Source of the DNA: Albifimbria verrucaria
Taxonomy: Eukaryota > Ascomycota > Sordariomycetes > Hypocreales > Stachybotryaceae
Length of the DNA stretch: 64,000 nucleotides
Direction of reading: 5' to 3'
Assembly (NCBI GenBank): GCA_020081605.1
Contig: JAHREC010000009.1
Span: forward strand, 4,464,001-4,528,000
Part shown: one piece after another, positions 1,646 to 32,070 of the stretch
Position numbering within the stretch: the stretch's first letter is position 1
How the letters are laid out: the number at the start of each line of letters is the position of its first letter
The notes under the pieces: generated by a model
Told to the model about the DNA's origin: nothing
The model's database searches: none
What the model saw: the letters and a program-made list of their open reading frames with translations, nothing else
Position numbers and translations under genes: made by a program

Positions 1646-4600
1646 TTAAGTCGCTGTGTAATTCGTTCCGAACAAATTGTTGTAGAGACAATTGACCATG
1701 GCGGGACCGTTGAGACTGGTGTTGGCCAAGCAAGCGGCCACTGTTCCGGTCGCGAGCGGTCCAAGGGCGACCGTACAGACCGGTATATCGAGCAAGAGCT
1801 GTACGGCGCTGTCCTGGGCAAGGTTAAGACAGGCCAGCGGTAGACGATTGACACAAGCCGAGCCGATGTTGTTGAGGAGACAGTTGTAAATAACTGAGCC
1901 CGACGAGCTTGAAGTGATGGAATTCAAACAGTTCGATACGCTGCCTGTAGCGAAGAGACCTAGAGACGTCACGCAAAGAGGTACCTGGCTCACCAAAGAG
2001 CTAGGCGAAAGGGTAAGGAACGCGCTACAAGCTGATGGCAGAGAAGTAGCGCACTTCTGCGGTAGATTTGTAGAGCCGCAGGTGGAGCCCGTCGGATATT
2101 GAACGTTGAGACCGAGCTGGGCGTTCAAGCAGTTGACGATGCTGAGACCAGATGTCACGGAGGTTATAGCCGATGTAACCAAGCAGGATGCTGTGCCTGC
2201 AATGTTCAGCACGCCTAGATCCGTAACACAGCCGGCGAGGGCGGATGTGGTGAGTTGAAGGCCACTGAGTGAGACCAGTGACAAACAGCTGGATGGGAGT
2301 TGCTGCAAACACTTCTTCGCCAAGGCATTCTCCAAGCAAGTAAGGATCTTGTTGCCGTCGATGAGGATGCTGAGAGGATTGTAAGCAACGCAGGGCAGGA
2401 GGTCCGTAGGCTTGCCGTTGAGGAACAGCGCAGCTTCACACGCGAGCAATTGGACAGTATTGAAAACAATTCCAGTGTTTGCAAGGGCAAGACACTCTGG
2501 CGGTAGCAGCTGGGCACCACCACACATGCTAACATCGTTAGTTGCGATAGGAGCACAGGATGTAACTGAGGTGGTTGCTGTGCTGACGGTGGTTGCCGGG
2601 ACGGACGTGACACTTGGAGTCTGAATGATGACCGTGTTCGTGATACCGGCACCGGTCTGAGTAATAGTATTGATTGTTGTGCCGCTGTATCCCTGTGTGA
2701 TGGTAGTATACTGAGGCAGAGGGGTTTCCACAATAACCGTATTCGTGATCCCGGTGCCAGATTGAGTGATTGTGAGGGTGCTGACGCCGCTGTATCCCTG
2801 TGTGATTGTCGTGTATTGGGGCAGAGGGGTCTGGACAACGACTGTATTCGTGATACCAGTACCGGACTGAGTGACTGTAAATGTGCTGACGCCGCTGTAT
2901 CCCTGCGTAATTGTAGTGTATTGGGGCAGAGGGGTCTGGACGATAACTGTGTTCGTGAGGCCAGTGCCACTTTGGGTGATCGTATTGATGCTGACACCGC
3001 TATATCCTTGCGTAATTGTGGTGAATTGAGGAATAGGGGTTTGGATGACAACCGTTTGGGTAAGGCCAGTTCCAGTTTGTGTGACGGTATTTATACTGAC
3101 ACCGCTGTATCCTTGAGTAATTGTAGTAAATTGAGGAATTGGCGTTTGAACAATAACCGTATTGGTGAGGCCAGTGCCACTTTGGGTGATAGTATTTATA
3201 CTGATACCGCTGTATCCTTGAGTGATTGTAGTAAACTGAGGAATTGGCGTTTGGATGACAACCGTTTGGGTAAGGCCAGTGCCGGTTTGTGTGACGGTGT
3301 TGATACTGACACCGCTGTATCCTTGAGTGATCGTGGTAAACTGAGGAATTGGCGTTTGAACAACAACCGTTTGGGTAAGGCCAGTACCGGTTTGTGTGAC
3401 GGTGTTGATGCTGATGCCGCTGTATCCTTGAGTGATTGTTGTGTATTGAGGATTAGGGGTTTGGACGATGACTGTATTGGTAAGGCCAGTGCCAGACTGA
3501 GTAATAGTGTTGATGCTAATACCACTATATCCTTCAGTAATCGTGGTGAATTGAGGAATTGGCGTTTGAATAACCACCGTTTGCGTAAGGCCAGTTCCAC
3601 TCTGAGTGAGTGTGTTAATACTAATGCCACTATATCCTTGTGTGATTGTTGTGTATTGAGGATTAGGGGTTTGGACGATAACTGTATTGGTAAGGCCAGT
3701 GCCAGACTGTGTAATGGTGTTGATGCTGATGCCGCTATATCCTTCAGTAATCGTGGTAAACTGAGGAATTGGTGTTTGGATAACGACTGTATTCGTGATA
3801 CCAGTTCCTGTCCTTGTCAATGTGTTGATGCTGATACCGCTGTACGCTTCTGTAACCGTGACATATTGGGGCCCAGGAGTTTGGATAACGACAGTGTTAG
3901 TGATGCCAGTACCTGCCCTGGTTATCGTATTGAGAGTAACTCCGGTATACTGTTCTGTTACCGTGACATACTGCGGGGCAGGAGTTTGGATAACCACAGT
4001 ATTGGTGCCGTCTGTGCCTGTCCTTGTGAGGGTGTTGAGGGTGACTCCAGTGTAGGCTTCCGTAGTTGTGACCAATTGGGGCGCGGGGTCTGAATTACTA
4101 CTGTCTCTGTTATACCAGTACCTGACCTGGTGATTGTGTTGATGGTCGTTCCAGTGTATTGTTCTGTAACCGTAACAAATTGGGCTGCTGGGGTTTGGAT
4201 CACTACTGTGTTCGTGATACCGGTGCCTGTCCTGGTAATTGTGTTCAACGTCACTCCAGTATAAGCTTCCGTAACCGTAACAAATTGGGGCGTAGGGGTC
4301 TGTATAACCACGGTGTTGGTGGCATCAGTGCCGGCTGGAGCCCGAGTGATTGTTGTGATAACACTTCCACTGTAAGGTTCGGTCACTGTAACATATGCAG
4401 GCGTTGTGGGAGTCTGGATCACTACAGTGTTGGTAATACCCGAGCCACTTGGAGGTCGAGTTATAGTCGTTATTGTGCTGCCACTGTAGGCCTCTGTGAT
4501 TGTCACATATGCTGGAGCAGGAGTTTGGATAACGACCGTGTTTGTGATATCTGTTCCTGATGGGGCACGAGTAATGGTTATGATTGTGTTTCCGCTGTAT

Positions 4601-7600
4601 GCCTCTGTTATCGTGACATAGGCTGGCGAAGGCGCAGGAGTATTGACAACCACAGTGCCCGTGGGAGATGGATCATTGCTGGCAGGGGTCAATGTCGTAA
4701 TTGAAGTAGAGACGCCTGAGTAGGAGCGGGTGACTGTGATATATGGTCCTGTGAAAGCTGGAGTATTCACAATTACAGTACCTGTAGGTGTAGGGTCGTT
4801 GCTGGCAGGATCCACTGTCGTGATGGAGGTTGTAACACCACTATATACACGTGTAACGGTTACATAGGGTCCTGTGAAGGCCGGTGTGTTGACGATGACT
4901 GTGCCCGTGGGTGTGGGATCGTTGCTAGCTGGGTCAACTGTCGTGATTGATGTTGTTACGCCACTATACACGCGAGTAACGGTCACATAAGGACCCGTAA
5001 ACGCTGGGTTATTTATGATCACTGTGCCTGTTGGCGAAGGATCGTTGCTTCCAGGAGCTTGTGTAGTCACCGAAATCGTCGTTCCGCTGTATGTGCGAGT
5101 GATTGTTACATATGGACCAGTGAAGGCTGGATTGTTCACAATAACTGTGCCTGTTGGTGAAGGATCGTTGCTTCCAGGAGCCTGGGTACTTATCGAAGTA
5201 GTCGTTCCGCTATAGACCCGAGTGATTGTTATATATGGACCAGTGAAAGCTGGGTTATTGACAATGATTGTGCCCGTAGGTGTAGGGTCATTGCTTGCAG
5301 GATCCTGAGTTGTTATCGAAGTAGTTGTTCCGCTATAGACCCGAGTGATTGTTACATATGGACCAGTGAAGGCCGGGTTATTGACAATAATAGTTCCAGT
5401 GGGTGTAGGGTCGTTGCTGGCAGGAGCCTGTGTCGATATCGATGTTGTTGTCCCACTATAGGTTCGGGTGATTGTCACATATGGCCCAGTAAATGCGGGG
5501 TTATTAACAATAACTGTGCCCGTAGGCGTAGGGTCATTGCTTGCAGGATCTTGAGTACTTATCGATATAGTTGTTCCGCTATAGGTACGAGTGATTGTCA
5601 CATATGGGCCAGTAAATGCCGGGGCATTCACAATGACTGTGCCTGTAGGTGTAGGGTCATTACTAGCGGGGTCTTGCGTTGATATCGACGTTGTTGTACC
5701 ACTATAAACTCTAGTGATTGTTATATAAGGACCAGTGAATGCTGGATTATTGACGATGACTGTGCCTGTAGGTGTAGGGTCGTTGCTAACAGGAGTCTGC
5801 GTTGTTATAGAGGTTGTGGTTCCTGTATAAGTACGTGTAATCGTCACATAGGGACCAGTAAATGCCGGGGTATTAAAAATGACGGTGCCTGTTGGCGTTG
5901 GGTCTCCATTAGCAGGAGCCTGAGTTGAGATGGACGTTGTGGTGCCAGAATAAACGCGAGTAACTGTAACGTATGGGCCGGTAAATGCGGGTGTATTGAT
6001 AATGACAGTACCAGTTGGCGTTGGATCTCCACTAGCAGGGTCCTGGGTCGAGATAGATATTGTTGTGCCTGAGTAGACACGGGTGACCGTAATGTATGGT
6101 CCAGTAAATGCCGGCGTATTGACGATAACAGTGCCGGTTGGCGTTGGGTCACCACTAGCAGGAGCCTGAGTTGAGATGGACGTAGTTGTGCCTGAGTACA
6201 CACGGGTGACTGTGATGTATGGTCCTGTGAATGCTGGTGTATTGATAATAACGGTGCCAGTTGGATCTCCACTAGCAGGGTCCTGGGTCGAGATAGATAT
6301 TGTGGTGCCGGAGTAAACACGAGTGACTGTAATATACGGTCCGGTAAATGCCGGTGTGTTGACGATAATGGTACCCGTGGGCGTTGGATCTCCGCTTGCG
6401 GGGCTGATCGTTGTTACTGACGTCGATACACCGGAGTATACACGAGTGATTGTGACATAAGGACCAGTGAACGAGCTAGGGATCGGGGTATTGATAATTA
6501 CAGTACCGATTCGTGTAGGATCGTTGCTAGCGGGATCTAATGTATCCACAGATGTTGTAGCACCTGAATAAGCACGAGTGATTGTAGTATAAGGCCCAGT
6601 AAATTGCGTTGGTGCAGGGGTATTAACGATCACAGTGCCTGTTGGTGTGGGATCACCACTTGCAGGATCAAGAGTCGCAACGGAGGTGGAGGCGCCCGTA
6701 TAAGGACGTGTAATTGTTATATATGGTCCAGTAAAGTAGGAAGGCGTATTGATAAGAACTGTTCCAGTAGGTGACGGGTCGCCGCTAGCTGGAGATATAG
6801 TGGTGACAGACACTGATAGGCCACTATATGCAGTAGTAATTGTGACATACGGACCAGTAAACGAGCTAGGAGCTGGGGTGTTTATGATGACCGTGGCAGT
6901 TGGCGTGGGGTCTCCGCTTGTTGGAGCTAATGTTGTGACCGATATTGACGAGCCGCTGTAAGCACGAGTAATAGTAGTGTATGGTCCAGTGAATGATGTA
7001 GATGCCGGCGTGTTGACTATGATAGTGCCTGTTGGCGACAGATCTCCACTGGCTGGTGCCTCAGTTGTAATAGACGTTGATACACCGCTGTAACCACGAG
7101 TGATAGTGATGTATGGTCCAGTAAAGACACTAGGTGCTGGCGTATTGACGATGACCGTGCCGGTTGGCGTGGGATCGCCACTAGCTGGAGCCTCCGTGGT
7201 GATAGACGTTGAGACACCGCTATAGGGGCGAGTCAACGTAATGTATGGGCCAGTGAATGAGCTAATTGCCGGTGTGTTGACGATGATTGTACCTGTTGGG
7301 CTTGGATCGCCACTAGCTGGAGCCTCTGTGGTGATAGACGTCGAGACGCCGCTATATGGCCTGGTAATCGTTATATAAGGACCTGTAAACGAGCTGACTA
7401 CTGGTGTATTAACGATGACAGTACCCGTTGGGGTAAGATCACCACTGGCTGGTGGCTCTGTAGTGACAGAAGTTGAAGCACCACTATATGGTCTAGTTAT
7501 TGTTATATAAGGACCTGTGAATGAGCTGACTACTGGTGTATTAACAATAATGGTACCCGTTGGCGTAGGGTCACCACTGGCTGGAGCTTCTGTTGTAATA

Positions 7601-10600
7601 GAAGTCGAAACACCACTATATGGACGAGTGACTGTTATGTAGGGACCTGTGAAAGAGCTGATAGCCGGTGTGTTTATAATGATTGTGCCTGTTGGCGTTG
7701 GGTCTCCACTTGCAGGGGCCTCGGTCGTAATAGAAGTCGAAGCACCACTATAAGGCCGAGTTATCGTCACGTAGGGCCCAGTAAAGGATGAACGAGGAGT
7801 ATTAACAATAACGGTTCCAGTGGGTGTTAGGTCTCCGCTAGCGGGATTTACCGTCGTGACAGAAATTGAGCTACCAGTGTAAGCCTGTGTAATCGTAATA
7901 AAGGGACCCGTGAATGAAGCCAAGCCAGGTGTATTGATAATAACCGTTGCTGTGGGAGAAGGATCATTGCTACCAGGGCTGACGGTTGTGACGGAAATCG
8001 AACTGCCAGTGTAAGCTTGTGTGATCGTGATAAAAGGCCCGGTGAAAGATGATAGACCAGGTGTGTTAATAATGATCGTGGCTGTAGGAGAAGGATCATT
8101 GCTAGCTGGGCTGATAGTTGTGACAGAAACTGAGATACCAGTGTATGCTTGTGTGATTGTAACAACAGGACCTGTGAAGCTTGATGGGGCAGGGGTGTTT
8201 ATAATAACTGTGGCCGTAGGCGAAGGATCATTGCTACCAGGACTGACTGTCGTGACGGAAATCGAAGTGCCAGTATAAGCTTGTGTGATTGTAGTAAAGG
8301 GACCAGTAAAGGACGAGGCAGGCGTATTAACAATGACTGTACCTGTGGGAGTAGGATCGTTGCTAGCTGGGTCTACAGTGATAATTGATGTCGAAGTGCC
8401 AGCATAAGGGCGAGTAACCGTGATATATGGGCCTGTGAAGCTTATTGAACCAGGGGTATTCACAATAACGGTTCCAGTAGGTGAGGGATCCCCACTGCTG
8501 GGTCCCAGAGTCGCGATTGAAGTCGTTGCACCCGTGTAGGGACGCGTAATTGTGACATAAGGAATACTAGATGAACCGGGGACATTGACGACAACTGTAC
8601 CTGTCGGCGTGGGGTCACCATTAGCAGGATCGAACGTCGCAATGGATATAGTAACACCGCTATATGTTCGAGTAATCGTGACGACTGGATATGCGACTGA
8701 GCCAGGTGTATTGATTATAACAGTTCTTGTTGGCGAAAGATCACCGCTAGCTGGATCCAGTGTCACGACTGAGACAGTAGAGCCACTGTATTGGCGAGTG
8801 ACTGTGGTATATGGTATGCTAGAAGAACCAGGAACATTGATGACAACTGTGCCTGTAGGCGTAGGGTCTCCACTAGTAGGGTCAAATGTAGCAATGGATG
8901 TAGTAACACCATTATATGTTCGAGTGACTGTGACAATTGGATAGGTAACTGAGCCTGGTGTATTAATCACGACAGTTCTTGTTGGTGAAGGATCGCCGCT
9001 AGCAGGGTCAATTGTGGTGATCGAGACAGTAATGCCGCTGTATGGGCGAGTAACAGTGACATAGAGTATACTCGATGTGTCAGGCACATCGAAAATAACA
9101 GTGCCAGTAGGACTAGGATCACCGCTTGCAGGAGATACCGTTGTAACTGAAGTCGATAGACCGTTGTACGTGCGAGTGATTGTGACATATGGAATACTAC
9201 CTGAACCGGGAACGTCCACTACAACTGTAGCCGTTGGGCTTGGGTCACCACTGGCTGGGCTTAAAGTTGTGATAGAAGTTGTAGCCCCGCTGTAAGTACG
9301 GGTAATTGTTGTATACGGTGTACTGATAGAGCTTGGCACATTGATCACTACTGTAACTGTTGGAGTCGGGTCGCTGCTGGCGGGATTTACCGTTGTGATT
9401 GAGGTTGTGGCCCCGGCATATGTGCGAGTGACTGTAATAGATGGAACGTTAACGGATCCGGGTATATCAACTATGATAGTACCTGTTGGCGCCGGATCAC
9501 CGCTTGCAGGGTTCACAGTAGTGATTGATGTTGTTGTGCCAGTGTATGTACGAGTAAACGTAATATACGGGAAGCTAGCAGGTGTGTTAATAACCACGGT
9601 TCTTGTAGGGCTAGGATCACCACTAGCAGGGTCCAGAGTGATAACAGAAGTTGTGGTGCCGCTATATGGTTGTGTGACCGTCACTAATGGGTAAGACGAA
9701 ACTCCTGGGGTATTAATAATGACCGTGCCGGTGGGAGTTGGGTCGCCACTAGCTGGGTCCAATGTAACAATCGATGTCGAGGTTCCACTGTAAGCGCGCG
9801 TGATTGTAACGAACGGCCCCGTGAAGGATTGGGAGGTTGGAGTCTTGATAATCACGGTGCCAGTTGGATCGCCACTAGCGGGAGCAAGGGTGACAGTGGT
9901 TAAAGTGCCATCGTATGGGCTAACGATAGTCGTGTACGGTCCAGAGAAGGCACTTGAGGCCGGTGTATTTATAAAGACGGTTCCTGTAGGCGTAGGATCA
10001 TCACTGGCTGGATCTAGCGTTACCACCGATATAGAAGTACCCGTGTAGGGTCTAGTTACTGTCACATATGGCCCAGTGAAAAATGCTCTAGCCGGTGTAC
10101 CAATGATAATAGTTCCAGTCAGATCGCCGCTTGCAGGAGCGAGCGTGGTGATAGAGGTGGAAACACCACTGTATGGTCTTGTAAGTGTAACATATGGCCC
10201 AGTAAATGCCGTCGGGGCAGGTGTATCGATAAAGACAGTCCCAGTCAAATCCGTACCAGTAGGGAGAACCGTTGTTATAGAGATTGATGTTCCAGTGTAT
10301 GACCTTGTGAAAGTGACATAAGGACCAGTGAAGGCTTGCGGTGTCTCTATAAAGACGGTACCAGTAGAATCCGTTCCAGTTGGGGCTACGGTGAAGCTGG
10401 TGGGGCTGCTACCGGTGTATCCACGAGTTATAGTAACGTATGGACCGGTGAAAGAAGTTGCGGGCTTTGGTGTCTCAACAACGACTGTGCCAGTGACATC
10501 ACTGCCGGAAGGACCAACAGTGTAGGTGATGATATTGGATCCTGTGTATCCACGAGTTATTGTGACATATGGTCCAGTGAAGGAAGCTGGGACAGTTGGT

Positions 10601-13600
10601 GTCTCAATGTAGACGGTTCCAGTGATGTCGCTTCCAGACAGGGCCAACGTATAGCTCGTGATTCCAGTGCCAGTGTAGCCTCGCGTAATCGTTACATACG
10701 GTCCAGAGCCTGAAGTTACCGAGGACAATATTGGGCTTGGTGTCTGGATAAATACAGTTCCTGTCAAGTCACTGCCTGAAGGAGGGACAGTAAGTGTAGT
10801 AGCGGAGTTACCACTATATTGTTGAGTGACAGTGACATAAGGACCATTGAATGCAATACTTGAACCTGTTGTTGTCGGGGTTGTAGTAGGAACACCTCCT
10901 GAACTAGAATCTGAAATGACCGCAGACGTCGTCCCTGAAACCGTGGCAGAGACTGTTGTAGATATTGCCCCGGATGTTGTTGTAGAGACAGAGCCACTGG
11001 GTGTTCCGGAAACCGCTCCACTAGGGCTATTGGATATGATTCCAGATGAAATTCCTGAACCTGTTCCAGAAGCAGTCGCGGATGCTGCTCCAGAAGACGT
11101 CTCAGACAACGCCCCTGAGGCCGTGGATGGGGTTGTTTCTGATGATGCGGGAGTAGAAACACCAGATGCTGACCCTGAAGATGCTCCAGAAACTGAACCG
11201 GAAGATGTCCCGATAGTTGTGCCTGAGGTTGTATCCAGAGATACACCGGATCCTGATGTAGAGTTTGCTCCTGAGGATACACCAGAAGATGGGATAGAGC
11301 CGGAAGATACTCCAGAGACTGAGCCAGAGATAGTACCAGAGACAGTAGCAGAAGCGGACCCAGAAACGGATGATGAAAGAACACCGGAGACTGTGCCGGA
11401 TGCAGAACCAGCTGCAGTATCAGAGACGACGCTGGAGATGGAGCCTGAGGCAGAACCTGAGAGGATTTCAGAGGCAGAACCAGCTACAGTGCCAGATATA
11501 GTACCGGAAGCCGAGACAGAGGGAGTTCCAGACGCAGTACCAGAGACTGTGCCAGAGACAGTACCAGAGACAGTACCAGAGGCTGCACCAGAGACAGTAC
11601 CAGAGACAGTACCAGAGGCTGTACCAGAGGCTGTGCCAGAGGCTGTACCAGAGGCTGTATCAGAGGCTGTACCAGAGACAGTATCGGAGATAGTATCAGA
11701 GGCAGTACCGGAGCCAGGGATGGATGATGTACCTGGTGTGGTTCCAGAAGATGCTCCAGACGCTTCTGAACTTGTTTCAGATATAGAGGCTGGGGAAGGT
11801 GCAGATGACACCCCAGAGGCTGTTCCGGATGCGCCTCCAGACGTGGCGCCAGAGTTGGCTGCAGGAGTTTCTATGAATACAGTTCCTGTACTATCTACAC
11901 CGGCAGGCAGAACAGTGAACGTGGTTATCGTGCTACCGGAGTAGCTACGAACAACTGTGACATATGGGCCAGTAAATGTAGGTGCGCCACTAGTAGCTGG
12001 TGTTTCCACATAGACAGTGCCAGTTAGATCGCTACTCGCTGGCTGGACTGTGTATGTTGTAGCGAAGCTTCCTGTATTGCCACGTGTTATGGTGACATAA
12101 GGTCCGGTAAACGCACCGAGAGCTGTTGTAGAAGGCGTTTCAATAAAAACGGTTCCGGTAACGTCACTGCCACTAGGAGCAACTGTGTATGTGGTGGCAC
12201 TAATTCCAGTGTAGGCACGTGTTACAGTGACTAGAGGCCCAGTGAATGAAGGAGAGGAGATAGCAGTGGGCGACTCGACGAGAATAGTGCCGGTGATATC
12301 ACTGCCTGTTGGAGGGACAGTGTAAGTTGTGAGGCCAGTGCCAGAATAAGGCCGCGTCACTGTTATATAAGGGCCTGTGAAAGATATAGTAGCCAGAGGT
12401 GTTTCAACATAGACAGTTCCTGTGATATCGGTACCTGATGGAGCAGCAGTATAAGTTGTTATGGTATTACCACTGTACCCCTTGTCAAAGTTGTGTAAGG
12501 ACCGGTGAATGATCCACCGGGTGTTTCCACGAACACGGTACCGACTGTGTCTGTGCCTAAGGGAGAGACTGTATATGTCGTAATTGTGCTCCCAGTGTAT
12601 GCCCTTGTGATAGTTGTGAGGAGCCACCTGGCTGAGAAAGAGTTGGTGTTCCGACAATAATAGTCCCAACGGTATCTGTACCAGTCGGGTCGACGGTATA
12701 TGTTGTACCCGCGGTTCCGCTATAAGCTTGCGTGACTGTTGTGTAAGAGATTGTAGGGACACCAGTTGTTGATGGTGTGGTGATAGTTGTACCAGACCCT
12801 GTTACTGGACCTGCCGCTGAAGATATGGAAGGCGTCGATGATAATGTCCCTGATCCCGTTGACGGAGTAAGTGAACTGGTGAAGGGAGTTTCAACTACAA
12901 CAGTAGCAACGGTGTCGGAGCCAGATGGAGCAAGTGTATATGTGGTAATTGTGCTTCCACTATATCCACGCGTAACGGTAGTGAGCGCTTCCGCAGCAGA
13001 ATCCAAGGAGGAAGGTGTCTCGACGAAAACGGTGGCAATGGTGTCAGTCCCAGACGGTGCAACTGTGTATGTAGTGATAGTGCTGCCTGTGTAAGCTCTT
13101 GTTATGGTTGTGAGGCCTCCAGCGGGTGTAGTAGCCGTCTGTGTAGGCACTTGGACTATAACAGAGCCTGTTTGACCAGAGCCTGATGGTGGTACAGTAA
13201 CTGTGGAAGGAGTTGTTCCGGAGTATGTAACCGTTACAGTGGTGTAAAGATCCACGGCTGTTGCGGCGGGAGTTTGAATAATCACCGTAGCGACAGTGTC
13301 ATCACTAGCCGGTGCGAGGGTGACTGTGGAGATGAAGGAGCCACTGTAGGGTGAGGTTACTGTTGTGTAGGAAATACCTGAAGCCGAGGCTCTAGGAGTC
13401 TCAACCACAACCGTTCCTGTGAGATCACCGCTACTTGGAGAGAGAGTGAGGGTTGTCGGGGTTGCTCCATTATACTCTTGGGTGACTGTGACATATGGGC
13501 CTGTGAAGCCTCCAGCCAACGGCGTCTGAATAATGACTGTGCCTGTAAGGTCTCCCATAGATGGGCTTACTGTTAAAGTAGAGACTTCGCTTCCGGTGTA

Positions 13601-19600: not shown

Positions 19601-22600
19601 ATGTGATAGTTGTGAACCCTCCAGGAGGCACAGCAACAACGACCGTTCCCACACCGCCAGCAGTTGCCGGAGGGCTGGTAAATGTCACAGGTGCAGTAAT
19701 TCCGGAATTGGTTTGTGTAATTGTTGTGTAAGATGTAGCTGAAGGGGCGAGTGTAGAGCTAGGAGGAACAGCAACAATAACAGTAGCAGTACCATCAGGA
19801 GTAGAGGGCGTGTTCGTGACAGTGTTCGGTCCAGTGAGGCCTGTGTTAGTAACCGTGATAGTGGTGAAGAAGGAGAATGACGGAGTCGCTGATCCTGAGG
19901 CAACTGGGACTGCGACAACGACTGTGCCTGTACCTCCTGGAGTAGCGGGGGCTGAGTAACGATATTAGTCGTGGTGATCCCACCGTTTGTGACAGTCACT
20001 GTAGTGAAGGAGTCCGTGACGGAGGATGTTACAGGCGCCACAGTAGATGTAGTAGATCTAGGAACAGCAACGACAACTGTAGCTACACCACCAGTACCAG
20101 ATGGTGGGTTGGTGACCGTATTTGGTGCAGTTATTCCATCGTTCGTTACGGTAATTGTTGTGAAGGAGCTGAATGATGGTGTAGGGGAGCCAGATGAGAC
20201 AGGTACTGCAATAATAACCGTACCAGTACCACCCGGGGTTGTTGGTGGCTGCGTAATTGTATTGATAGCTGTCAATCCACCATTCGTAACAGTCACTGTT
20301 GTGTACGAATCTGTTACTGAAGAGGCACCAGGAGTAGGAGGAACTGTCGAAGAGGATCTTGGAACAGCTACAATAACAGTGGCAGTGCCTCCAGATGTTC
20401 CTGGTGGATTTGTCACTGTCTTAGGACCAGTCAATCCATCGTTAGTTACTGTTGTTGTAGTGAAAGCACTATAAACCGGTGTTGTAGACCCAGAAGATAC
20501 TGGCACAGCTATAACGACGGTACCTGTTCCTCCAGGAGTAAGTGGAGGGTTTGTAACAGTGTTGGGTCCGGTTAAACCTCCGTTTGTGACAGTGACTGTT
20601 GTGTAGGAGTCTACGGCCGAGGAGCTTCTCGGTACAGCAACGATGACGGTAGCTGTGCCTCCAGGTGTTCCTGGTGGGTTTGTTACAGTGTTCGGTCCAG
20701 TCAAACCATCATTAGTTACTGTAGTAGTTGTCAGGGCTGCAAATGAGGGTGACGGAGAGCCGGATGAAACAGGTACAGCAATAATCACCGTGCCTGTGCC
20801 CCAGGTGTGGTTGGTGGGTTGGTAACTATGTTCGTTGTCGAAAGGCCTCCATTCGTGACGGTAATGGTTGTGTATGCATCGGATACTGCTGCAGAAGCCG
20901 CCGTTGTTGTGGAGCGTGGAACTGCAACTATAACAGTTGCCTGACCACCAGGGTAGAAGGTGGAATGGTTACAGTATTCGGAGCTGTCAAGTCAGGATTC
21001 GTAATCGTGGAAGTGGTGAAGCTGCCAGGCGCTGGTGGCGTGGATGAACCTGAAGGCAACGGAACTGCAATTACAACTGTACCCGTGCCGCCTGGAGTAA
21101 CTGGAGGATTGGTCAGAGTATTAGTTGTTGAAATACCTGCGTCTGTTACAGTCACAGTTGTATAAACGGCCGGCAAATTAGACGAAGTTGCTGCTGGAGA
21201 GGTTGTTGAGGCAGGGACACCAATAACAACTGTGGCTTGTCCGCCTGAAGTAGCGGGTGGTATTGTGATTGTATTTGGCCCCGTAAGACTAGGGTTTGTG
21301 ACTGTGAGAGTGGTGAAGCTTCCAGCAGCTGGAGGTGAGGAGGATCCCGAAGACACCGGGACGGCAATAATAACTGTACCAGTTCCTCCTGGAGTAGCCG
21401 GCGGGTTCGTCAAGGTATTCGGGCTTGTCAAACCACCATCAGTCACGGTTACTGTTGTGTATGGTATGGGAAGAGGAGGTAGCGTTGATGTAGCGGATGA
21501 AACAACCGACCCTGGGACAACAACAACGACTGTGGCGAGACCACCTGATGTAGATGGTGGGTAAGTGATGGTGTTTGAAGCAGTCAACGCAGGATCGGTA
21601 ATTGTAGTTGTGGTGTATGAGCCTGCAGAAGGCGGTGGTGACGATCCGGAGGGAAGAGGAACAGCGAGGATAACAGTGGCAGTACCACCAGGGGTGCCTG
21701 GTGGATATGTGATGGCATTCGTTGTACTGAGTCCAGCATCTGTGATCGTGACGGTTGTATAACCAGCAGGGGTGGGTGTTGGAGTTGTTGAAGCAGAAGT
21801 TGATCGAGGAACAGCTACAATCACTGTTGCTGTGCCTCCAGGACTCGTTGCTGGATTTGTGATTGTATTAGGTGCCGTAAGTCCATCACCAGTTATCGTG
21901 ACCGTGGTAGTCGGTCCAGAAATTGAAGGAACCGTTGAGCCAGAAGGCAAAGGAACTGCAACAATAACTGTTGCCGTACCTCCGGGAGTTGCTGGTGGCT
22001 GTGTGAGTGTGTTCGGTGCAGTCAAGCCAGCATTCGTCACAGTAAGTGTCGTCGTTGCGGCCGGGGTAGGTGTGACAGTGGGCGAGACTGTGGTTGAACG
22101 TGGTATAGCAACAATAACTGTAGCAGTTCCACCAGGGCTAGTAGCTGGGTTTGTGATGGTGTTAGGGGCCGTGAGGCCATCACCAGTTATGGTGACTGTC
22201 GTTGTTGGACCAGTTATAACAGGTAATGAGGAGCCAGACGGTAACGGAACTGCTACAATGACTGTAGCTGTGCCACCAGGAGTCGCAGGAGGTTGTGTCA
22301 ATGTGTTAGGGCTTGCAAGTCCAGAATTCGTAACAGTAATAGTTGTGGTTGCTACGGGCGTAGGCGTTACTGTTGGCGAAGTTGTCCTAGGGACAGCCAC
22401 AATAACGGTTGCCGTACCACCAGGACTTGTAGCAGGGTTTGTGATGGTGTTCGGGGCTGTAAGATTGTCGCCAGTAACTGTGATTGTCGTTGTTGGACCG
22501 GCCACCGAGGGCGTAGGTGATCCTGAAGGTAAAGGTACTGCAATAATCACAGTTGCAGTACCTCCTGGAGTGGCTGGTGGCTGTGTTAAAGTATTGGGGC

Positions 22601-25600
22601 TTGTTAATCCTACATTGGTTACTGTAATCGTAGTGGTAGCCACTGGAGTTGGCGTTCCAGTTGATGTTTGTGTAGTTCGTGGGACAACGACAATAACAGT
22701 CGCGGTGTCTCCTAGCCTAGTGGCTGGGTTAGTTATTGTGTTCGGTCCTGTAAGGCCGTCACCAGTAACTGTAACTGTCGTAGTTGGTCCTGTAATTGTC
22801 GGGGTTGGTGACCCAGATGGCAGTGGGACAGCGACTATCACAGTTGCGGTGCCACCTGGAGTGCCTGGTGGTTGCGTTACAGTATTCGAGCTTGTGAGCC
22901 CAACATTGGTAACCGTGACGGTGGTGGTCGTGATTGGAGTAGGTTGTGCTGACGTTACAGCCGGAGTTGTTGAAGGCAATGGAACTGCAACAATTGCTGT
23001 GGCTGTGCCTCCAGGTCCAGTAGCCGGGTTCGTAATAGTATTCGAAGCAGTCAGGCCGCTGTCAGTGATAGTGATTGTGGTGGTTGGGCCAGCGAAAGAC
23101 ACTGCAGACGACCCCGAGGAACGTGGGACAGCAACAATCACAGTAGCTGTTCCTCCAGGAGTTCCAGGCGGTTGGGTGATTGTGTTCGGACCAGCAAGGC
23201 CGTCATTTGTCACGGTGATCGTTGTGTAAGCTGCTGGCAAAGGAGTCGATACAGAACCAGCTGGCAAGATAGTCGTTGAACGAGGCACGGCGACGATGAC
23301 GGTTTCTGTACCACCAGGCCCAGTTGCCGGGTTTGTAATGGTATTGGGCGATGTGATTGCCGGGTCCGTAATGGTTATCGTAGTGATCGGCCCAGTGAAC
23401 GAAGGGATTGATGAACCGGAAGGTGGAGGCACTGCGACAATGACCGTAGCTGTTCCACCTGGAGTAGCAGGCGGCTGCGTGAGGGTGTTCGGTCCCGTAA
23501 GTCCAGCATTCGTAACTGTGACGGTCGTGGTCGCGGCAGGTGTCGGGGTTGTAGTCACTGCTGGGGTAGGCTGCGTCGTGGTCGACACAGGCAAGGCTAC
23601 GATGACAGTGGCCGTACCGCCAGGCCCAGTCGCTGGATTTGTGATGGTATTAGGTGAAGTGATCGCAGGATCCGTGATCGTAACAGTGGTAGTTGGGCCT
23701 GTAAGCGTAGGCGTTGGCGACCCAGACGGGAGAGGCACTGCGATAATGACTGTGGCTGTTCCACCGGGTGTTGCAGGAGGTTGCGTAAGTGTGTTTGGAC
23801 TTGTGAGTCCCACATTTGTGACAGTAATTGTTGTAGTTGCAATAGGTGTTGGGGTTGTTGTCGGAGCAGTTGAGGTTGGCAAAGGCACTGCTACGATAAC
23901 GGTTGCAGTTCCTCCCGGTGTAGTTGCAGGGTTCGTCACAGTATTGGGTAATGTCAGCCGGCCATCCGTAACTGTAATCGTTGTAGTCGGTCCAGAGAAA
24001 ATAGACGGTGTGGGAGATCCTGATGATAACGGCACGGCAACAAAAACTGTAGCAGTCCCACCTGGCGTTCCAGGAGGTTGCGTGATTGTGACCGGGCTTG
24101 TGAGACCAGCATTAGTTGCAGTGATAGTTGTGTAGCCTGCAGGAGCTAGGCTTGTTGCTGAAGCCGTGGTGGAGGGCGGCACGGCAACAATAACAGTTGC
24201 AGTTCCGCCTGGTGCGGTAGCTGGGTTCGTTATCGTATTGGGACTTGCGAGCCTGCTATCCGTGATTGTGATGGTTGTAGTTGGCCCAGTAATTTGAGAT
24301 GGCGTGGGAGAGCCGGATGATAAGGGCACTCCTACAATCACAGTGGCAGTTCCGCCAGGTGTTCCAGGAGGTTGGGTGATAGTCACGGGGCTTGTAAGGC
24401 CAGGATTGGTTGCAGTTATGGTTGTATAGCCTGCTGGAGCAAGATTCGCTATTGAAGCCGTCGTTGACGCTGTCGTCGAAGGTGGCACAGCTATGATAAC
24501 AGTCGCAGTACCTCCTGGGGCCGTTGCAGGGTTCGTTATAGTGTTGGGTCCTGTGAGTCGGCTATCCGTGATCGTGATAGTCGTGGTTGGTCCCGCGACT
24601 TGAGATGGCGTTGGGGAGCCGGATGATAGTGGCACCGCAACCACAACTGTAGCAGTTCCGCCCGGTGTTCCCGGAGGCTGTGTGATCGTGATTGGACTCG
24701 TAATACCAGCATTGGTCGCAGTGATAGTTGTGTAGCCTGCTGGAGCTAGGCTCGTCGTTGTGACGGCTGTTGTCGATGGTGGTACGGCGACAACCACAGT
24801 GGCAGTTCCTCCTGGTCCAGTAGCAGGGTTCGTGATAGTATTAGGACCCGAAAGTCGATCATCTGTAATTGTAATCGTTGTAGTTGGTCCAGCAATTTGC
24901 TGTGGTGTCGAAGAGCCAGACGGCAAAGGCACTGCTACAATCACAGTGGCAGTGCCACCTGGTGTGCCTGGTGGCTGCGTGATCGTGTTAGGGCCAGATA
25001 TTCCTACATTCGTCACTGTGATAGTTGTGTACGCTCCAGGTCCTATTGATGGTGCCGTTGTCTTGGGAGGAGGTACCGCGACGATGACAGTCGCAGTGCC
25101 ACCAGATGAAGTGGCAGGGTTAGTCAGTGTAACTGGAGATACAAGCGAAGCATCTGTGATCGTGATAGTCGTAGTTGGTCCTGCGATAGCAGCCGGTGTA
25201 GAGGATCCAGATGGCACCGGAATAGCAACAATTACTGTGGCAGTTCCACCCGGTGTTCCTGGTTGCTGTGTAATGGTATTAGGACCCGTGATTCCAGGGT
25301 TAGTAACTGTGACTGTTGTATAGCCTGCTGGTGCCACGCTGGTGGTAGTTGTCGCTGCCGCTGCTGCTGATGATGAAGGCACAGCTACGATAACTGTCGC
25401 AGTTCCCCTGGTGCAGTAGCTGGATTAGTTAAGGTAATAGGCGACGTAAGTCTACTATCAGTAATCGTGATAGTAGTAGTTGGCCCAGCAATAACAGAAG
25501 GTGTCGAAGATCCAGAGGGGACCGGTACACCAACGATAACCGTCGCAGTTCCACCGGGAGTTCCTGGCTGCTGTGTGATTGTGTTAGGACCTGTGATTCC

Positions 25601-28600
25601 AGGATTAGTAACGGTGACAGTAGTATATCCTGCTGGTGCTATGCTGTTAGTAGTCGGCGCTCCTGCTGTTGTCGATGCAGGCACCGCGACAACGACTGTA
25701 GCAGTACCGCCTGAGACAGTAGCTGGGTTAGTCAAAGTAATAGGGGCAGTAAGGCTAGCGTCAGTAATTGTGATCGTTGTGGTTGGCCCAGCAAAAGCTG
25801 AAGGTGTGGACGATCCAGATGGAACTGGTACTGCTACTATGACAGTAGCAGTGCCGCCGGGAGTACTCGGAGGTTGAGTGATTGTGTTGGAGCCTGTAAT
25901 ACCAGCATTTGTGACTGTAATGGTGGTGTATCCTGCGGGGCTAATTGATGTAGTCGTCGCCGGAGGAGGCACGGCGATGATAACGGTTGCTGTACCACCA
26001 GAGACAGTAGCTGGATTCGTAATTGTATTGGGAGCCGTGATCCGACTATCTGTGATGGTAATGGTAGTCGTCGGACCAGCAAACACAGAGGGCGTAGGCG
26101 ACCCAGAAGAAACCGGCACAGCCACGATGACGGTAGCAGTACCTCCGGGTGTACCAGGGGCTGTGTTATCGTATTGGGGCTTGTGAGGCCAGCGTTTGTC
26201 ACTGTTACTGTAGTGTAGGCTCCTGGTCCGACGGTCACAGAGGTTGTGGGCAACGGAACAGCTATGATAACTGTTGCAGTACCACCGGAGCTAGTCGCAG
26301 GATTCGTGATGGTGTTAGGGGCAGTAAGCCGATCATCTGTAATTGTGATCGTTGTCGTTGGACCGGCAAACACAGAGGGTGTGGGGATCCAGACGAAACA
26401 GGCACGGCGACGATGACAGTAGCAGTGCCCCGGGAGTTCCTGGAGGCTGGGTGATAGTATTCGGGCCGGTGAGTCCAGTGTTCGTGACAGTAATTGTCGT
26501 GTAAGCTCCTGGGCTGGGTGTGGTGGTCGGGGAGGCACAGCTACGATAACGGTTGCCGTACCACCAGAAGCGGTGGCCGGGTTCGTGATGGTGTTAGGCG
26601 TCGTGATTCTGCTATCAGTGATAGTTATAGTTGTGGTTGGACCAGCAAATACGGACGGAGTTTGTGATCCGGATGGAACAGGCACAGCGATAATAACAGT
26701 AGCAGTTCCTCCAGGAGTCCCTGGTGGTTGGGTAATTGTGTTCGGACTCGCGAGACCAGCATTTGTGACAGTAATTGTCGTGTAAGCCGTTGGACTAGGT
26801 GTCGTTGTAGGAAGAGGCACGGCTATAATAACAGTCGCTACACCACCAGAAGTCATAGGAGGGTTGATTATGGTATAAGGCGTCGTAATCCTGCTATCGG
26901 TAATAGTTACCGTCGTAGTCGATCCAGCAAATACTGATGGCGTTGGGGATCCAGACGGGACAGGCACAGCGACGATGACAGTTGCGGTTCCACCAGGGGT
27001 CCCGGGCGGCTGAGTCACCGTGTTAGCGCCTGTCAGTCCAGCATTCGTAACCGTGACTGTTGTATATGCTCCAGGACTGATTGTCGCTGCAACGAACTGT
27101 GTAGTCTGAGCTCCATTATCCGGCGGTACGGCGACAATGACAGTATTCATACCACCAGAGCTTGTAGCCGGATATGTAGCAGTAACCGGTGTCGAGATGC
27201 CACTGTTAGTAATGGTAATGGTGGTCATAGGTCCAACCAAGGCGGCGCCGGATGCTGTATTTGGTGGAGGCACCGCGATGACAACGGTAGCTGTGCCATC
27301 AGATTTAGATGGGGATACGTAATTGTCTTGGTTGTGGTCAATCCAATATTCGTCACGGTGGTAGACGTATATCCAACGAAAGACTGCGATGGAGCTCCTG
27401 ATGTGCCGGGAACAGCAACGAGAACAAGCTCCGTATCTCCAGGAGTAGAAGGTGGCAGAGTCACTGTCTGAGGCCCAGTGAGTCCATTGTTCGTGACTGT
27501 CACAATCGTTGAAGGCCCTCTGGAAATGGCGGCCGAAGTGGACCCTGGAACAGCGACGATAACGGTTCCAGTACCACCAGACGAGGCAGGGGGCAACGTG
27601 ATGTACTTGGTGGTGGAAAGGTTGGGATCCGTAATCGTCGCTGATGTCAGTGGGCCACTGAATATAGGAGCTGACGATGCAGTCGAAGCGGCCGGTACAC
27701 CCACAATAACGGTGCCCGTACCACCACTGCTGGTAGGGGAGTGTAATGGTTGTGGGAGCCGTGAAAGTAGCGTCGGTTATTGTTACAGAAGTTAGAGGCA
27801 CGCCATATGGATTGAGCGACGTCGTTCCCCATAAGGCTGTGCACCTGTGGAAGATGGGCCTCCAGATGTACCAACAAGATTCTGACTACCTATGCCTCCG
27901 GTCGAAGGACGAAGGACTAGGGTGCTAAGACCTCCAGTCGAGCCGCCGCCGCCCTGAGTGTTTGAACTTCCAGCAGACGCAACGGGTGTAGTAGCCCCTA
28001 AGGATCCCCTCCAATCGCTGAGCTAGGAGGCACAGCAATGATAGCAGTAGCAGGGTCACCGGGAGCACCAGGGCCGAACACGAAAGTCGTCGGCTTCGTG
28101 ATGCTTCCATCCGTCATCGTGTAAGATCTCGTGGTTGTCGCAGAGATGGGCGTGCTCAACGCTCCTGAAGGGGAGGTACAGCAACGATCGCGGTCGCCGG
28201 GTCACCAGCTTTTCCAGGGGCAGAGTGTATGTCACGGGGCTTGTCAGACTGCCGTCTGTCAAGGTAACGATCCTAGTGGTTGAAGCGGAGATGACTGGTA
28301 CAGATACACCTGGGCTAGGTGGCACGGCGATAATAACAGTGGCCGGATCTCCAGCGTGACCAGGTGGGATAGTGAACGTCCGTGGGACCGTGATGCTACC
28401 ATCCGTTACCGTGAGGGATGTGGTTGAGCTTGCCGACAGGGGAGGTTGGTCGAACCACCAGGAGTAGGAGGCACCGCTATAAGTGCGGTCGCGGGATCAC
28501 CTTGACGCGTGGGGGATCACAAAAGTTCGAGGACCGGTAATACTGCCGTCCGTCACAGTGACGGAAGTCGTCGAGAGAGCCGAGATGGGCCCCGGTGCGG

Positions 28601-29960
28601 AAACACCAGCAGAGGGCGGTACAGCAACAAGAACCGTAGCGACATCTCCAGGCTTCGAGGGAGGGATCGTGAACGTCCGCGGGGATGTGATGCTTCCATC
28701 CGTAACCGTAAGAGAGGTCGTAGAACCAGCAGAGATTTGAGCACCGGTAGGGCTGGCAGGATTCGCTGGAACAGCAACAATGACTGTAGCAGGGTCACCC
28801 GGACGAGAAGGCGGGAACGTGTATGTGGTTGGCTTTTCAAGACTACCATCGGTCAAGGTAATCGATGTGGTCGAGAGAGCGGATATGAGCGGGTTTGTAG
28901 CGCCGCCGGTCTGTGAGGGTCCTGGTCTCGAACTAGGAGGCACAGCAATGATGACCGTTCGATCACCACCAGGCCGCGATGGCGGGTAGGTGATGGTTTG
29001 AGGGCAGTCAGCCCATCATTCGTGATTGTGATCGTGGTCAATTGTCCAAGATCGGGTAGAACGCCCATGGTCTGGCCACCAGGCCCAGGGACCGCTACAA
29101 TGATTGTTCCCTGGATATTGATTATTGGAGGAGCATATGTGATGGTCCTCGGATCCGTCAACCCATGATCCGTCACGGTAATCGTGGTGTAATGCCCATG
29201 TCCGCCAGACCAACCTGGGGGCACGTTGATAATCACAATCACCGGATCATGGGGATTAGATGGATGCACGGTGTGGATGTCCGGCTCGTTGAGGCCATCT
29301 TGCACCCGAGTGAGAGTAGTATAAGGCCCTTTGACATATCCAGAGGGCACCTCAATGATTACCGTACCCGTGCCTTTGGGGTCTGAAGGTCCCCTCGTCT
29401 GTGTTCGGGGTCCTTGCAAGCCATTCAAAGTCTTGGTGACTGTGGTGTATGGGCCATAAAATGGGGCACTTCCACGAGAATCGTCCCAGGACCTCCTGGA
29501 CTCGACGGCGGGAACGTACGTGTGATGGGCTCATCAACGCCAGCTTCCGTTGCCGTGATGGTGGTGAATGGTCCTTTTAGTGGTTTGAATGGGAGAAGAC
29601 TTCAATTAATTCATTGTTAGTCACTACGCAAAACATGGCTGGCCCTACAGCCCTCCTCCATCATGGCCTGACCTACCTGCTGAGAGTTAGCACGGTAACG
29701 GACGTATCCGTCACAACGGTGCTGATAGTTCGAGGAGCGTTGGTAACGTGGATAACGAGGTCTGAGTTGATGACAATGTCGGTATTAACCGGTACGTAGG
29801 TGCTCACGAGAATCGGGACCTGGTACTCGTATTCGACGGGTTGGATTTCGAAGATCTCCGGATTGGGGCAATAGTCCAGAGCCGGACGTTGTGGAAAGGC
29901 ATTCACGAGCCCTGCGAGGGCCAGGACGGCCGCCTTGACCGTGGCCCCTGTGAGGCGCAT
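1646..29960 (-). CDS. Giant secreted repeat protein (about 9,420 residues), adhesin/cell-wall type
   Basis: Start is the ATG at 29960-29958, giving a classical signal peptide (MRLTGATVKAAVLALAGLVNA, then FPQRP). A 77-bp intron (29600-29676) follows 95 codons, then the frame runs to a stop at 1646. In order: short N-terminal segment with CPNPEIFEIQP; repeats B (about 29580-28030); a Gly/Ser linker; alternating repeats C (27810-18480); repeats D (18430-15310); Ser/Gly spacer; repeats E (14640-4640) with a second spacer at 11870-10860; 36-residue repeats F (4640-2620); and a Cys-rich C-terminus (about 2565-1649). The printed frame is interrupted at 29 places, each repaired by restoring one base, or two at 28511 and 27736, to a homopolymer. 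The corrected coding length is 28,269 nt, exactly 9,423 codons. Repeat style (a T/S-rich strand, PPxGT, then GTVIVxTP) recalls fungal flocculin or ALS-type adhesin repeats; that is inference, not a database match. No GPI signal is visible. Function is unknown; an extracellular wall or adhesion role is likely. Confidence 0.85.
1649..2565 (-). other. C-terminal Cys-rich domain of the giant protein: four tandem four-Cys modules
   Basis: After the last repeat the composition changes to Leu/Cys-rich. Four tandem modules of about 65-86 residues lie at about 2300-2506, 2042-2299, 1844-2041 and 1649-1843. Each begins with LPxxC and carries four cysteines at module positions near 5, 23, 38 and 52-57, the last in the form NCLxN or TCLEN. 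Extra cysteines lie between modules. The protein ends LFGTNYTAT with no hydrophobic tail, so a GPI anchor is not indicated. I recognise no named family. Confidence 0.75.
2620..4640 (-). repeat. Repeat block F: about 18 copies of a 36-residue (108-bp) unit
   Basis: Consecutive units read like PQFTTITEGYSGISINT followed by QSGTGLTNTVIVQTP. The period is 108 bp, visible as the recurring forward-strand string tgaggaattggcgttt at about 3128, 3236 and 3344. Neighbouring copies are near-identical at DNA level between about 3000 and 3800, more so than other blocks of this gene. The block also contains variants with TEAYSG and TRAPSGT at its N-terminal side. Confidence 0.85.
4640..14640 (-). repeat. 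Repeat block E: about 40-residue FTGPY...GTVIVNTP units with an internal spacer
   Basis: Units of about 117-125 bp encode FTGPYVTITRxYSG, a Thr/Ser stretch, PASGDPTPTGTVIVNTP and then the next FTGPY. Roughly 65-70 units are present. The middle residues vary (RVYSG, RPYSG, QAYTG) and synonymous sites have diverged widely, which points to older duplications than in the 108-bp block. Within 8570-9560 FTGPY is replaced by variants such as SIPYVTITRTY. The Ser/Gly spacer at about 10860-11870 splits the block. Confidence 0.8.
10860..11870 (-). repeat. Ser/Gly/Thr/Ala-rich spacer with 12-18 bp tandem repeats
   Basis: This part of the giant protein is a low-complexity run of SGTASGTVSGT type. At about 11520-11720 the DNA is a short-period repeat, with gtaccagagacagtaccag-like units alternating with gtaccagaggct. 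Such Ser/Thr-rich stretches in fungal wall proteins are normally heavily O-mannosylated stalks. The opposite strand is open over this stretch only because of the biased composition. Confidence 0.8.
14650..15310 (-). repeat. Second Ser/Gly/Thr-rich spacer
   Basis: A low-complexity stretch (SGTASGAASGSVSGSAG type) separates repeat blocks D and E. A smaller spacer of the same kind lies at about 15790-15950. It has no cysteine and no recognisable domain; it probably acts as an extended glycosylated hinge. Confidence 0.75.
15310..18430 (-). repeat. Repeat block D: alternating YDGYDG / TEAYDG units
   Basis: Units of about 43-47 residues alternate between FTGPYTTIYDGYDG...GTVLIQTP and FTGSYTTITEAYDG...ATVLVQTP, so the true DNA period is a dimer of about 280 bp (for example similar junctions near 16395, 16674, 16950 and 17230). 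All units keep the TLPxSGT turn. Three frame breaks fall here or at its edges (17416, 17692, 18047), each explained by one lost base. Confidence 0.75.
18480..27810 (-). repeat. Repeat block C: alternating VTNAGL / ITDSRL units, about 300-bp dimers
   Basis: Units alternate between YTTITVTNAGLTSPNTIT + QPPGTPGGTATVIVAVP and GPTTTITITDSRLTGPNTIT + NPATGPGGTATVIVAVP. Dimer junctions recur about every 290-305 bp (for example near 24018, 24315, 24618, 24919, 25209, 25511 and 25818). The GGTATVIVAVPP core is coded by a stretch that also reads nearly the same on the opposite strand. About 60-65 single units are present; those at 18480-20000 are more divergent. Confidence 0.8.
28030..29580 (-). repeat. 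Repeat block B: N-terminal TDGSITSPRTF / PGDPATVIVAVPP units
   Basis: About ten divergent units of roughly 45-50 residues are found near the N-terminus of the giant protein, in the pattern STTSVTVTDGSIT...TIPPSKPGDVATV. The first three, next to the intron (FTTITATEAG, YTTVTKTLNG, YTTLTRVQDG), are the most divergent. A Gly/Ser linker containing GGGGSTGG at about 27840-28050 separates this block from block C. Confidence 0.75.
29600..29676 (-). other. Intron in the giant repeat gene
   Basis: On the minus strand the donor is GTAGGT (29676 downward), the branch site CTAAC at about 29620-29616 and the acceptor AAG at 29600. Splicing joins AG to T in phase 2, giving ...VLTLSSLLPFKPLKGPFTT, which connects the signal-peptide segment to the first repeat without a frame break. 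The unspliced frame stops directly after the donor. Confidence 0.85.
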
Positions 29961-30880
29961 GTTTGCTCGGTTTCCTGATGGTTTCGTAAGAGCCGTGAGC
30001 GAGCTCCGAAACCGAAAGTGGAAGAGATGACAACTTGGTGACGGTTTGGGAAGCGCACAAGTTTTGTACGCTTCACAACATTCCCTGCTCAAGGGCCCCT
30101 TGGGGTATCCCAGAGACGCCCTTTCGTCGCCATCTTCCAATATGCCACACGCATCCCACGAGCTTGCCTGAGGCTACCGCCCGAAATTAGGTCTACAGGA
30201 ATCTCTCACATGTCTCGCCTATCAGGAGAAAGGGTCCCCAGGGCCACGATCGTCCCTGCAGCCCAGGGCAACGACTTTCCATAGTGCCTGGTCGTCGAGG
30301 CCTTGGTGGGTTTTGTCTCAGTCCTGGGCCAGGGATGGAATCTGTCGCGAGGGATGGAATGACGGGCGATGGCGCGTAAAGTGGTTACAACAGTGTAGAC
30401 GCCGCTCCGGACCCGGTAGATGCATCTGCTGTATCGAGATGCTGGGAAATCTTTGTAAAGGGGCCATCGGCACGGTTACCGTCCCTCGGCCGCATTCAGC
30501 TCTCCGTCCAACAATCCAACAATCCAACAATGGAACAATGGTCTTGTCTCCCGAAGTGACGACGGGCACGAGGCTGTCTTACTTCCCCACCGTCCACCCA
30601 TGTCTTCAATGAGTTTCTCTGGAAACGTCGAAACTCGTTGGCAAGGCCGTTGAATCGGTTCCCGACGTTGTAAATCGTAGTCAAGTGCTGTCAGTGAATG
30701 GGTATATAGGTCAAGCTGTTTCCTGTTGAATATGAGCTTTCTTCTGCATGATCTTTCCATCATCAAAAAGCATTCTCCATTTTCTACCACATTCATCCTC
30801 TCTCTTCTCTTCCGCAGTTCTTCACAACTGTTCCGTCGTTTTTGCTCTTTATATTACTTTGGCTTTCTCTTTTGACAAAG
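29961..30880. promoter_or_regulatory. Shared divergent promoter region, giant protein / GPI protein
   Basis: 920 bases lie between the two divergent start codons. No gene is supported. It must hold both 5' untranslated regions and promoters. The only clear element is a TATATA at 30703-30708 facing the GPI-protein gene. Confidence 0.55.
30703..30708 (+). promoter_or_regulatory. Putative TATA box of the GPI-protein gene
   Basis: TATATA lies about 175 bp upstream of the ATG at 30881 and is followed by a pyrimidine-rich leader. Fungal 5' untranslated regions of 100 bp or more are common, so the distance is acceptable. Confidence 0.4.
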
Positions 30881-32070
30881 ATGAAATCCTTTTCTTCCAC
30901 CGTCACTTTGCCTTTGCTCCTCAGCTTCGGCCTACCAGCTTACGCCGCCGCTGTTGCCACTTCCTGCGTGCCATCGACTACCACGCAAATCTTGCCCACG
31001 GTCACAATCTCTACCCTGGGCGATACCAGCACTTGGAAAGGTCGGCCCATGACCGATGGCCGCCGCATCGAAACGGTATACACTACCGAATACGATGTTT
31101 TCTGCTCAACTGGTCTGCGCAAGCACACTTACACCGTTACCGAGCACTGTCCTCCGCAGCCGGACTGCCCGTGCCGAGGTGATAAGCCAAAGCACTTCTA
31201 CACCACGGTAGCAGTGTGCCATACATGTGGCAAAGAACCCGTTACCGCGACTCTCACTCTGCCCGCTGTCACTGCCGTTCCGCTTGGGGCTCCGCCGCAA
31301 CACAAGGAAGCCCATGCAACCGGTTCGCCCGACGTCCCACATGGATCTAAGGGTGGGGCCGATCACGGGCATGGAAACGGAGTTGAGTCTGACGGCCCCC
31401 ACAACGCCGGTCATGAAGGCGGATGTGACAACAGGCACTGCAATGAGAAGCCGAACCCTGGCTCACCTCACGCAAACAACGGCCCTGATGACAACCATGC
31501 GCCTGGTGCAAATGGTTCCCCTGGTGGTAACAACAAGCCTGGCGCAAACGGCTCCTCTGATGGCAACCACACCCCTGGTGCCAACGGGTCTCATGACGGC
31601 AGCAACACACCTCATGCCAACAACGGTCCTGGCGACAAACACACGACTGGCACGGAGGGTCCTCATGATGGCAGCAACACCCCTAGCGCAAACGGCTCCC
31701 ACAATGGAAGCAACACGCCCGGCGCAAACAGCTCTAACGGTGGAAGCAGCACGTCCGGTACTAACAACTCCCCGGTGGGAACAAGGTATCTACAGATGGC
31801 AAGAATGCTGGAGACTCCAGCGAGCATGCCGCAACTAACCCTGGTGGTAAGCCCGGCCAGCCCGGCCAACTCGGAGAGCCTGGCCGCATCGAGACGGTGG
31901 TCCGTCCTGGCGCATCTGGAACGCCCGGACACGAGAACTCTCCTGATAAGGCACCAAGCACGCCGAGCTCCAAGCCCGTCGTCGTCGCCTCCGCCCACTC
32001 CGTGGTGCGGTCAAGCTCGCTTCGGTGGACAATGGCAGGTGTCGTCATTGTTGGTGCACTTCTCTGCTAA
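30881..32070 (+). CDS. Secreted GPI-anchored cell-wall protein with Asn/Gly/Ser repeats
   Basis: The ATG at 30881 starts a signal peptide (MKSFSSTVTLPLLLSFGLPAYA). A Cys-containing region follows (TTEYDVFCSTG, TEHCPPQPDCPC, VAVCHTCGKEP; about residues 25-130), of a type common in fungal wall proteins. Then comes a low-complexity domain of about 14-residue units (PGANGSxDGSNT) at about 31450-31780. The frame breaks at the cccc near 31771-31774; one more C restores PGGNK and carries the frame to TAA at 32068, giving 396 residues ending in SSSLRWTMAGVVIVGALLC, a small-residue site plus hydrophobic tail typical of a GPI signal. Without the repair this tail is lost. It is divergent from the giant repeat gene and probably a surface protein too. 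No named family is assigned. Confidence 0.75.

Follow-up and report, generated by a model that had tools for sequence, protein, structure and literature searches.

Does a string of overlapping reading frames on one strand of a fungal contig amount to a single gene, and if so, for what kind of protein? The question is raised by positions 1646..29960 of a window of 64,000 nt from Albifimbria verrucaria (C6:4464001-4528000 of a 48.4-Mb assembly in 41 contigs), the minus strand of which, from 29960 down to 1646, carries one coding array across many overlapping open pieces. The original prediction joined these into one 28-kb gene for a signal-peptide-led repeat protein of 9,422 residues. Our analysis confirms that observation: the 28-kb locus is well supported as one gene for a protein of ~9,400 residues with a signal-like start, with all of its repeat units on one strand and with conserved domains at its two opposite ends.

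The gene, its repeat units and its ends

The gene opens with an ATG at 29960 and closes with a stop codon directly after 1649 (minus strand). Exon 1 (29677..29960, minus strand; 94 codons plus 2 nt) combines a hydrophobic, signal-like start, which we judged by eye and which agrees with the signal peptide proposed originally, with an N-terminal domain recognized by a profile of homologous N-termini. A predicted spliceosomal intron of 77 nt (29600..29676, minus strand), read directly from the sequence as GTAGGT..CTAAC..AG and checked by arithmetic, joins this exon in frame to the first repeat unit. Subtracting the intron and the stop codon from 1646-29960 leaves ~9,412 codons, a figure counted on the assembly as given, uncorrected for frame breaks and with no frame repaired; it is close to the predicted length. 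The longest open piece of the array has 2,947 residues (3961-12801).

Between the ends lies a long series of related units. A unit profile of 35 positions, made from 119 seed units out of seven window pieces, identifies 184 unit stretches at an independent expectation value (i-E) below 0.01, all on the minus strand within 2615-29571 and none elsewhere in the window, and these become 180 units once four pairs split by a frame change are merged. The stretches span 18,612 of 28,315 nt (66%); relaxing the threshold to i-E<0.1 gives 189 within the gene and three on the opposite strand. In the Pfam search suggested with the original prediction, 19 larger pieces were scanned, of which 11 match PF05792 (Candida_ALS) at or above the cut-off (one exactly at it), six match more weakly and two do not match, with an expectation value (E) of 9.3e-128 in the longest piece. 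Genome-wide, at least 125 PF05792 matches occur at E<=1 and at least 123 of them fall in the giant gene, the other two among the matches listed (contigs C15 and C41) being weak; 33 of the 125 stretches are marked as over the cut-off, one of them only together with its neighbours, and all 33 are in the giant gene.

The two ends are recognizable in their own right. A profile of the N-termini of 12 homologues matches one of 1438 six-frame pieces, 29676-30173 on the minus strand (E 1.2e-14; next 0.97), and a Cys-unit profile from six homologues matches the minus-strand piece 1649-4324 with four domains (E 1.2e-42; next window piece 0.95), the first of which is weak (i-E 0.02). The latter correspond to four units of ~60 residues at 1649..2530 (minus strand), followed by the stop, and bear out the Cys-rich end that had been predicted. 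Searches of Pfam, NCBIfam and PDB with this end gave no match at the thresholds applied, and single-sequence searches of the same genome with either end returned only self-matches and no paralogue.

Protein searches were run within length limits, with relatives of ~5,200-16,000 amino acids (aa) falling outside, and within these limits a single protein, P0008 of Beauveria mimosiformis, is retrieved at E<=0.001 by the C-terminal part of 1649-4324. As a query P0008 in turn finds 17 proteins, itself included. Eight of these (P0017-P0024), all of 667-1057 aa, consist of the N-terminal domain, 3-8 ALS units and four Cys units; five from Beauveria (P0008-P0012) share with the giant protein the N-terminal domain and Cys-rich units, here 6-8 in number, but differ in that no ALS units were found; and the remaining four (P0013-P0016) have Cys units only. 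For those proteins from which the profiles were built, the N-terminal and Cys matches hold by construction. The relatives come from Fusarium, Beauveria, Clonostachys, Thyridium and Colletotrichum, together with two lacking an organism name, and the named genera are ones that we take to be Sordariomycetes.

Because the ends that lie 28 kb apart here co-occur in single short proteins, they are most simply the two ends of one gene, and this is the strongest argument for that conclusion. It also follows from these short deposited proteins that the three-part architecture is not unique; the earlier statement that it matched nothing known does not hold, given eight unnamed hypothetical proteins with the same three parts. 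Those of Thyridium curvatum (P0018), Fusarium sambucinum (P0017) and Colletotrichum (P0019-P0024) share all three parts with the giant protein, down to the number of Cys-rich units (four), and a Ser/Thr-rich linker is common to the giant protein and to P0017-P0019 and P0023, the ones that were read. They differ in scale, their 3-8 units standing against ~180 units in ~9,400 aa, and the giant gene is a 22- to 60-fold repeat expansion inside an unnamed three-part family. The Colletotrichum kahawae member, P0023, carries the source label 'UbiD family decarboxylase', which its sequence, read by eye, does not suggest.

Comparison with known systems and proposed function

Several elements of this system are already known or in databases, namely the ALS repeat, the three-part architecture and the presence of ALS proteins in Hypocreales, as in D. 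coniospora (PMC4792172). For a surface protein, the product is unusual in its size and in how many repeats it has; neither a surface protein on this scale nor the end domains as a described family was found in the open-access literature searched. The claim of extraordinary length therefore stands for surface proteins and not for fungal proteins at large, since peptaibol synthetases, which are of another kind, reach ~25,000 residues (PMC3218866). For Als proteins, PMC3981074 gives 3 to 36 repeats per protein and a unit of 36 residues.

Like the Candida Als adhesins, the giant protein has the PF05792 unit, richness in Ser and Thr and, by inference, secretion. The Als adhesins, however, carry Candida_ALS_N and a glycosylphosphatidylinositol (GPI) signal, whereas in the giant protein Candida_ALS_N was not found and there is no GPI-like tail: it ends in NLFGTNYTAT, and on hydropathy, the only property considered, the highest 12-residue mean within the last 30 residues is 0.72. 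The Ig-like domain PF11766, a marker of the Als adhesin family according to PMC6308950, is present in none of the 19 scanned pieces at E<=1, and exon 1 has no Pfam match of any kind at E<=0.1; the same searches found no PA14, GLEYA or Flo11 domain, one of which defines a Flo adhesin (PMC8621652). The Fusarium giant repeat proteins P0003-P0006 (3,662-4,995 aa; all but one are marked partial) likewise have long arrays of related units, but only 0-14 of their units pass the profile used here, and neither the N-terminal domain nor Cys-rich units were found in them, three being incomplete. One of them, P0005, bears a PF21959 label. Blastomyces BAD-1 is similarly repetitive, secreted and without a GPI signal; it differs in having 24-residue Cys/Trp repeats and an EGF-like end, and the likeness is one of description. 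It shows nonetheless that a repeat adhesin can be secreted without a GPI signal and rebind through its C-terminal domain (PMC6023273).

The explanation that best accounts for the whole, to which we assign a probability of roughly 0.6, is that the locus encodes a wall adhesin or stalk that is secreted, has no GPI anchor and contains an array extensible under force, a function that we infer by analogy with these systems. The protein would consist of a signal peptide, a small N-terminal domain, ~180 ALS-type units, two long spacers and four Cys-rich units. The ALS-type units would be short beta modules that bear O-glycans and together make up an extended stalk like that of Candida Als proteins; a beta-branched TVIVxxP-like pattern, which fits 171 of 176 unit ends, counts in favour. 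The predicted model of four units has three strands per unit at a predicted local distance difference test score (pLDDT) of only 53, and both structure models are poor. Als repeats are described as unfolding one by one under force (PMC3981074, PMC6023273), each adding 8.4 nm (PMC3981074), and 180 such units could give ~1.5 micrometres of extension. With no GPI-like tail present, attachment to the wall or to a surface would fall to the Cys-rich end, much like the rebinding of BAD-1, and the N-terminal domain would make the other contact; we favour the Cys-rich end as the anchor of this wall-bound stalk or adhesin, with the reverse orientation possible.

A secreted mucin-like matrix or wall filler, in which length and glycans matter and no specific contact is made, has in its favour the high Ser/Thr share of the array pieces (0.36 in the longest, for example), as well as the scanned pieces showing neither a lectin domain nor another ligand-binding domain of Pfam. 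We regard it as unlikely, as the conserved N-terminal and Cys-rich end domains together with the ALS unit would favour a surface role with contacts. Rather more doubtful is that the array serves as a micrometre-scale elastic tether, its ~180 modules unfolding singly and exposing ~170 aggregation-prone strands, so that one molecule stretches from hypha to hypha or from hypha to a surface and also zips up with neighbouring molecules. On functional-amyloid adhesins, whose mark is fibre formation or force-induced clustering, the sequence contributes the count of beta-branched unit ends, 171 of 176. We know of no longer fungal tether of such a kind. If the wall adhesin or stalk is correct, the ALS repeat, on which most work has been done in Candida, would have reached an extreme length in a filamentous fungus, as part of a conserved but uncharacterized family, two undescribed end domains would become testable in short relatives, and uncorrected assemblies could be seen to conceal giant genes by splitting them into many small frames.

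Frame breaks and coding constraint

There are 21 frame changes between neighbouring unit stretches (0.78 per kb), with additional ones inside 27741-28319, where units are not cleanly visible. All except one equal a single missing base (or two extra), the other being opposite, a bias with a binomial P of ~1e-5 under equal chances. It had been proposed that the frames join at homopolymer breaks, and this is true in part: the breaks are best read as assembly errors, but homopolymers account for only some of them. The gene has 13 homopolymer runs of 5 and none of 6 or more; a run of 5 is present in 5 of the 21 break intervals against 0.93 expected (reached by 0 of 2000 controls), and the longest run per interval averages 4.05 against 3.50 expected (standard deviation 0.13). 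The first of the proposed breaks is the predicted intron at 29676-29600, of canonical form.

Other genes of the same assembly are interrupted similarly. The PROCN domain of PRP8 is spread over three frames in 1.2 kb, and the overlap of the profile coordinates leaves no place for an intron; the PRO8NT domain of PRP8 has one further frame change, again with overlapping profile coordinates, giving three in total without room for an intron. A fourth, which separates RRM_4 from the U5-binding domain, may be an intron. Among 22 HSP70 rows there are five abutting junctions without intron room, four of which have the same direction as in the giant gene. Small frameshifting indels have been described in nanopore assemblies of filamentous ascomycetes (PMC9453082), although that the present assembly is nanopore-based is a guess.

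The frame changes could instead be real mutations in a once-giant gene that is now a decaying pseudogene. At least 21 of them stand in the assembly as given, and some housekeeping domains in it are unbroken, with two of three RPB2-like domains reading through and one HSP70 gene reading through profile 28-598; four of the HSP70 rows, moreover, contain an in-frame stop. We nevertheless consider a pseudogene highly improbable, given the shared direction of 20 of the 21 changes, which mimics single missing bases, the like breakage of PRP8 and several HSP70 genes, and the pattern of differences among the units. Neighbouring units of equal length (89 pairs) differ by 0.22, 0.15 and 0.60 at codon positions 1, 2 and 3, and second-neighbour units (104 pairs) by 0.19, 0.13 and 0.61; the corresponding ratios of non-synonymous to synonymous substitution rates (dN/dS) are 0.12 and 0.09, in which the synonymous rates are rough because synonymous sites are close to saturation (proportion of synonymous differences, pS, near 0.7). 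These codon-position differences and a dN/dS near 0.1 argue against a pseudogene. With synonymous sites near saturation while the protein is conserved, the array looks old, which suggests that its length has been kept by selection and is not the result of recent slippage. The closest equal-length pair among 161 full units has only 92% of its bases identical, and it is therefore unlikely that the assembler collapsed the array or expanded it falsely. That two or more genes lie in a row, such as a front gene and a back gene, draws on the absence of clean unit cover at 27741-28319 and is a very slim prospect when in the window the N-terminal domain occurs at the front only and Cys-rich units at the back only, both are found together in single short proteins, and the two long spacers sit inside open pieces.

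Two further features of PRP8 were noted on contig C41. An in-frame stop (L017:5594-5596) separates adjoining same-frame PRO8NT matches (profile 1-76 and 78-115), and the assembly may thus hold substitution errors too. In the PRP8 piece L017:1-2682, a Hom_end-associated Hint match (PF05203, E 2.1e-9) lies ahead of the best U6-snRNA-binding match, which suggests a putative intein.

Blocks of the array and neighbouring features

Where the original prediction distinguished five repeat families, the array consists of a single kind of unit, of ALS type, whose six or seven blocks represent subtypes; there are ~180 units in all, plus two long spacers. Mean identity scores are 0.41-0.78 within blocks and 0.16-0.37 between most of them, with A-B (0.44) and E1-E2 (0.61) as exceptions. 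All blocks are on the minus strand and were delimited by the unit profile and unit comparison. Block A (28320..29571) is followed by the weakest-supported stretch (27741..28319, minus strand), which has several frame changes by eye and unit remnants below threshold. In blocks B (18504..27740) and C (15315..18341) the units alternate in pairs, this two-unit period being seen in identity scores of 0.73 at lag 2 versus 0.58 at lag 1 for B and 0.61 versus 0.54 for C. Block D (11863..14627) is flanked by the two main spacers, which are as predicted, lack units and lie on the same strand within open pieces: one of 687 nt (14628..15314, within the open piece 14163-17429) and one of 1020 nt that is rich in Ser, Gly and Thr and open in frame with its neighbours (10843..11862). 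Block E (4636..10842) has units mostly of 37 residues, with mostly 123-nt spacing over 6339-4636, and block F (2615..4620) has units mostly at 105-nt spacing.

Elsewhere in the window, an acyl-CoA thioesterase fragment (575-1210, plus strand; PF20789, PF02551) adjoins the 3' end of the giant gene, and 36-nt tandem repeats (31483-31752) lie ~1.5 kb upstream of its start. The C-terminal part of an aspartyl protease (35874-36854, plus strand; PF00026) is followed by low-complexity repeats. Finally, 45601-47355 on the minus strand encodes a ferric reductase or NADPH-oxidase-like protein, in which the match to the NAD-binding profile ends at position 54 of 156, perhaps owing to an intron or another frame break.
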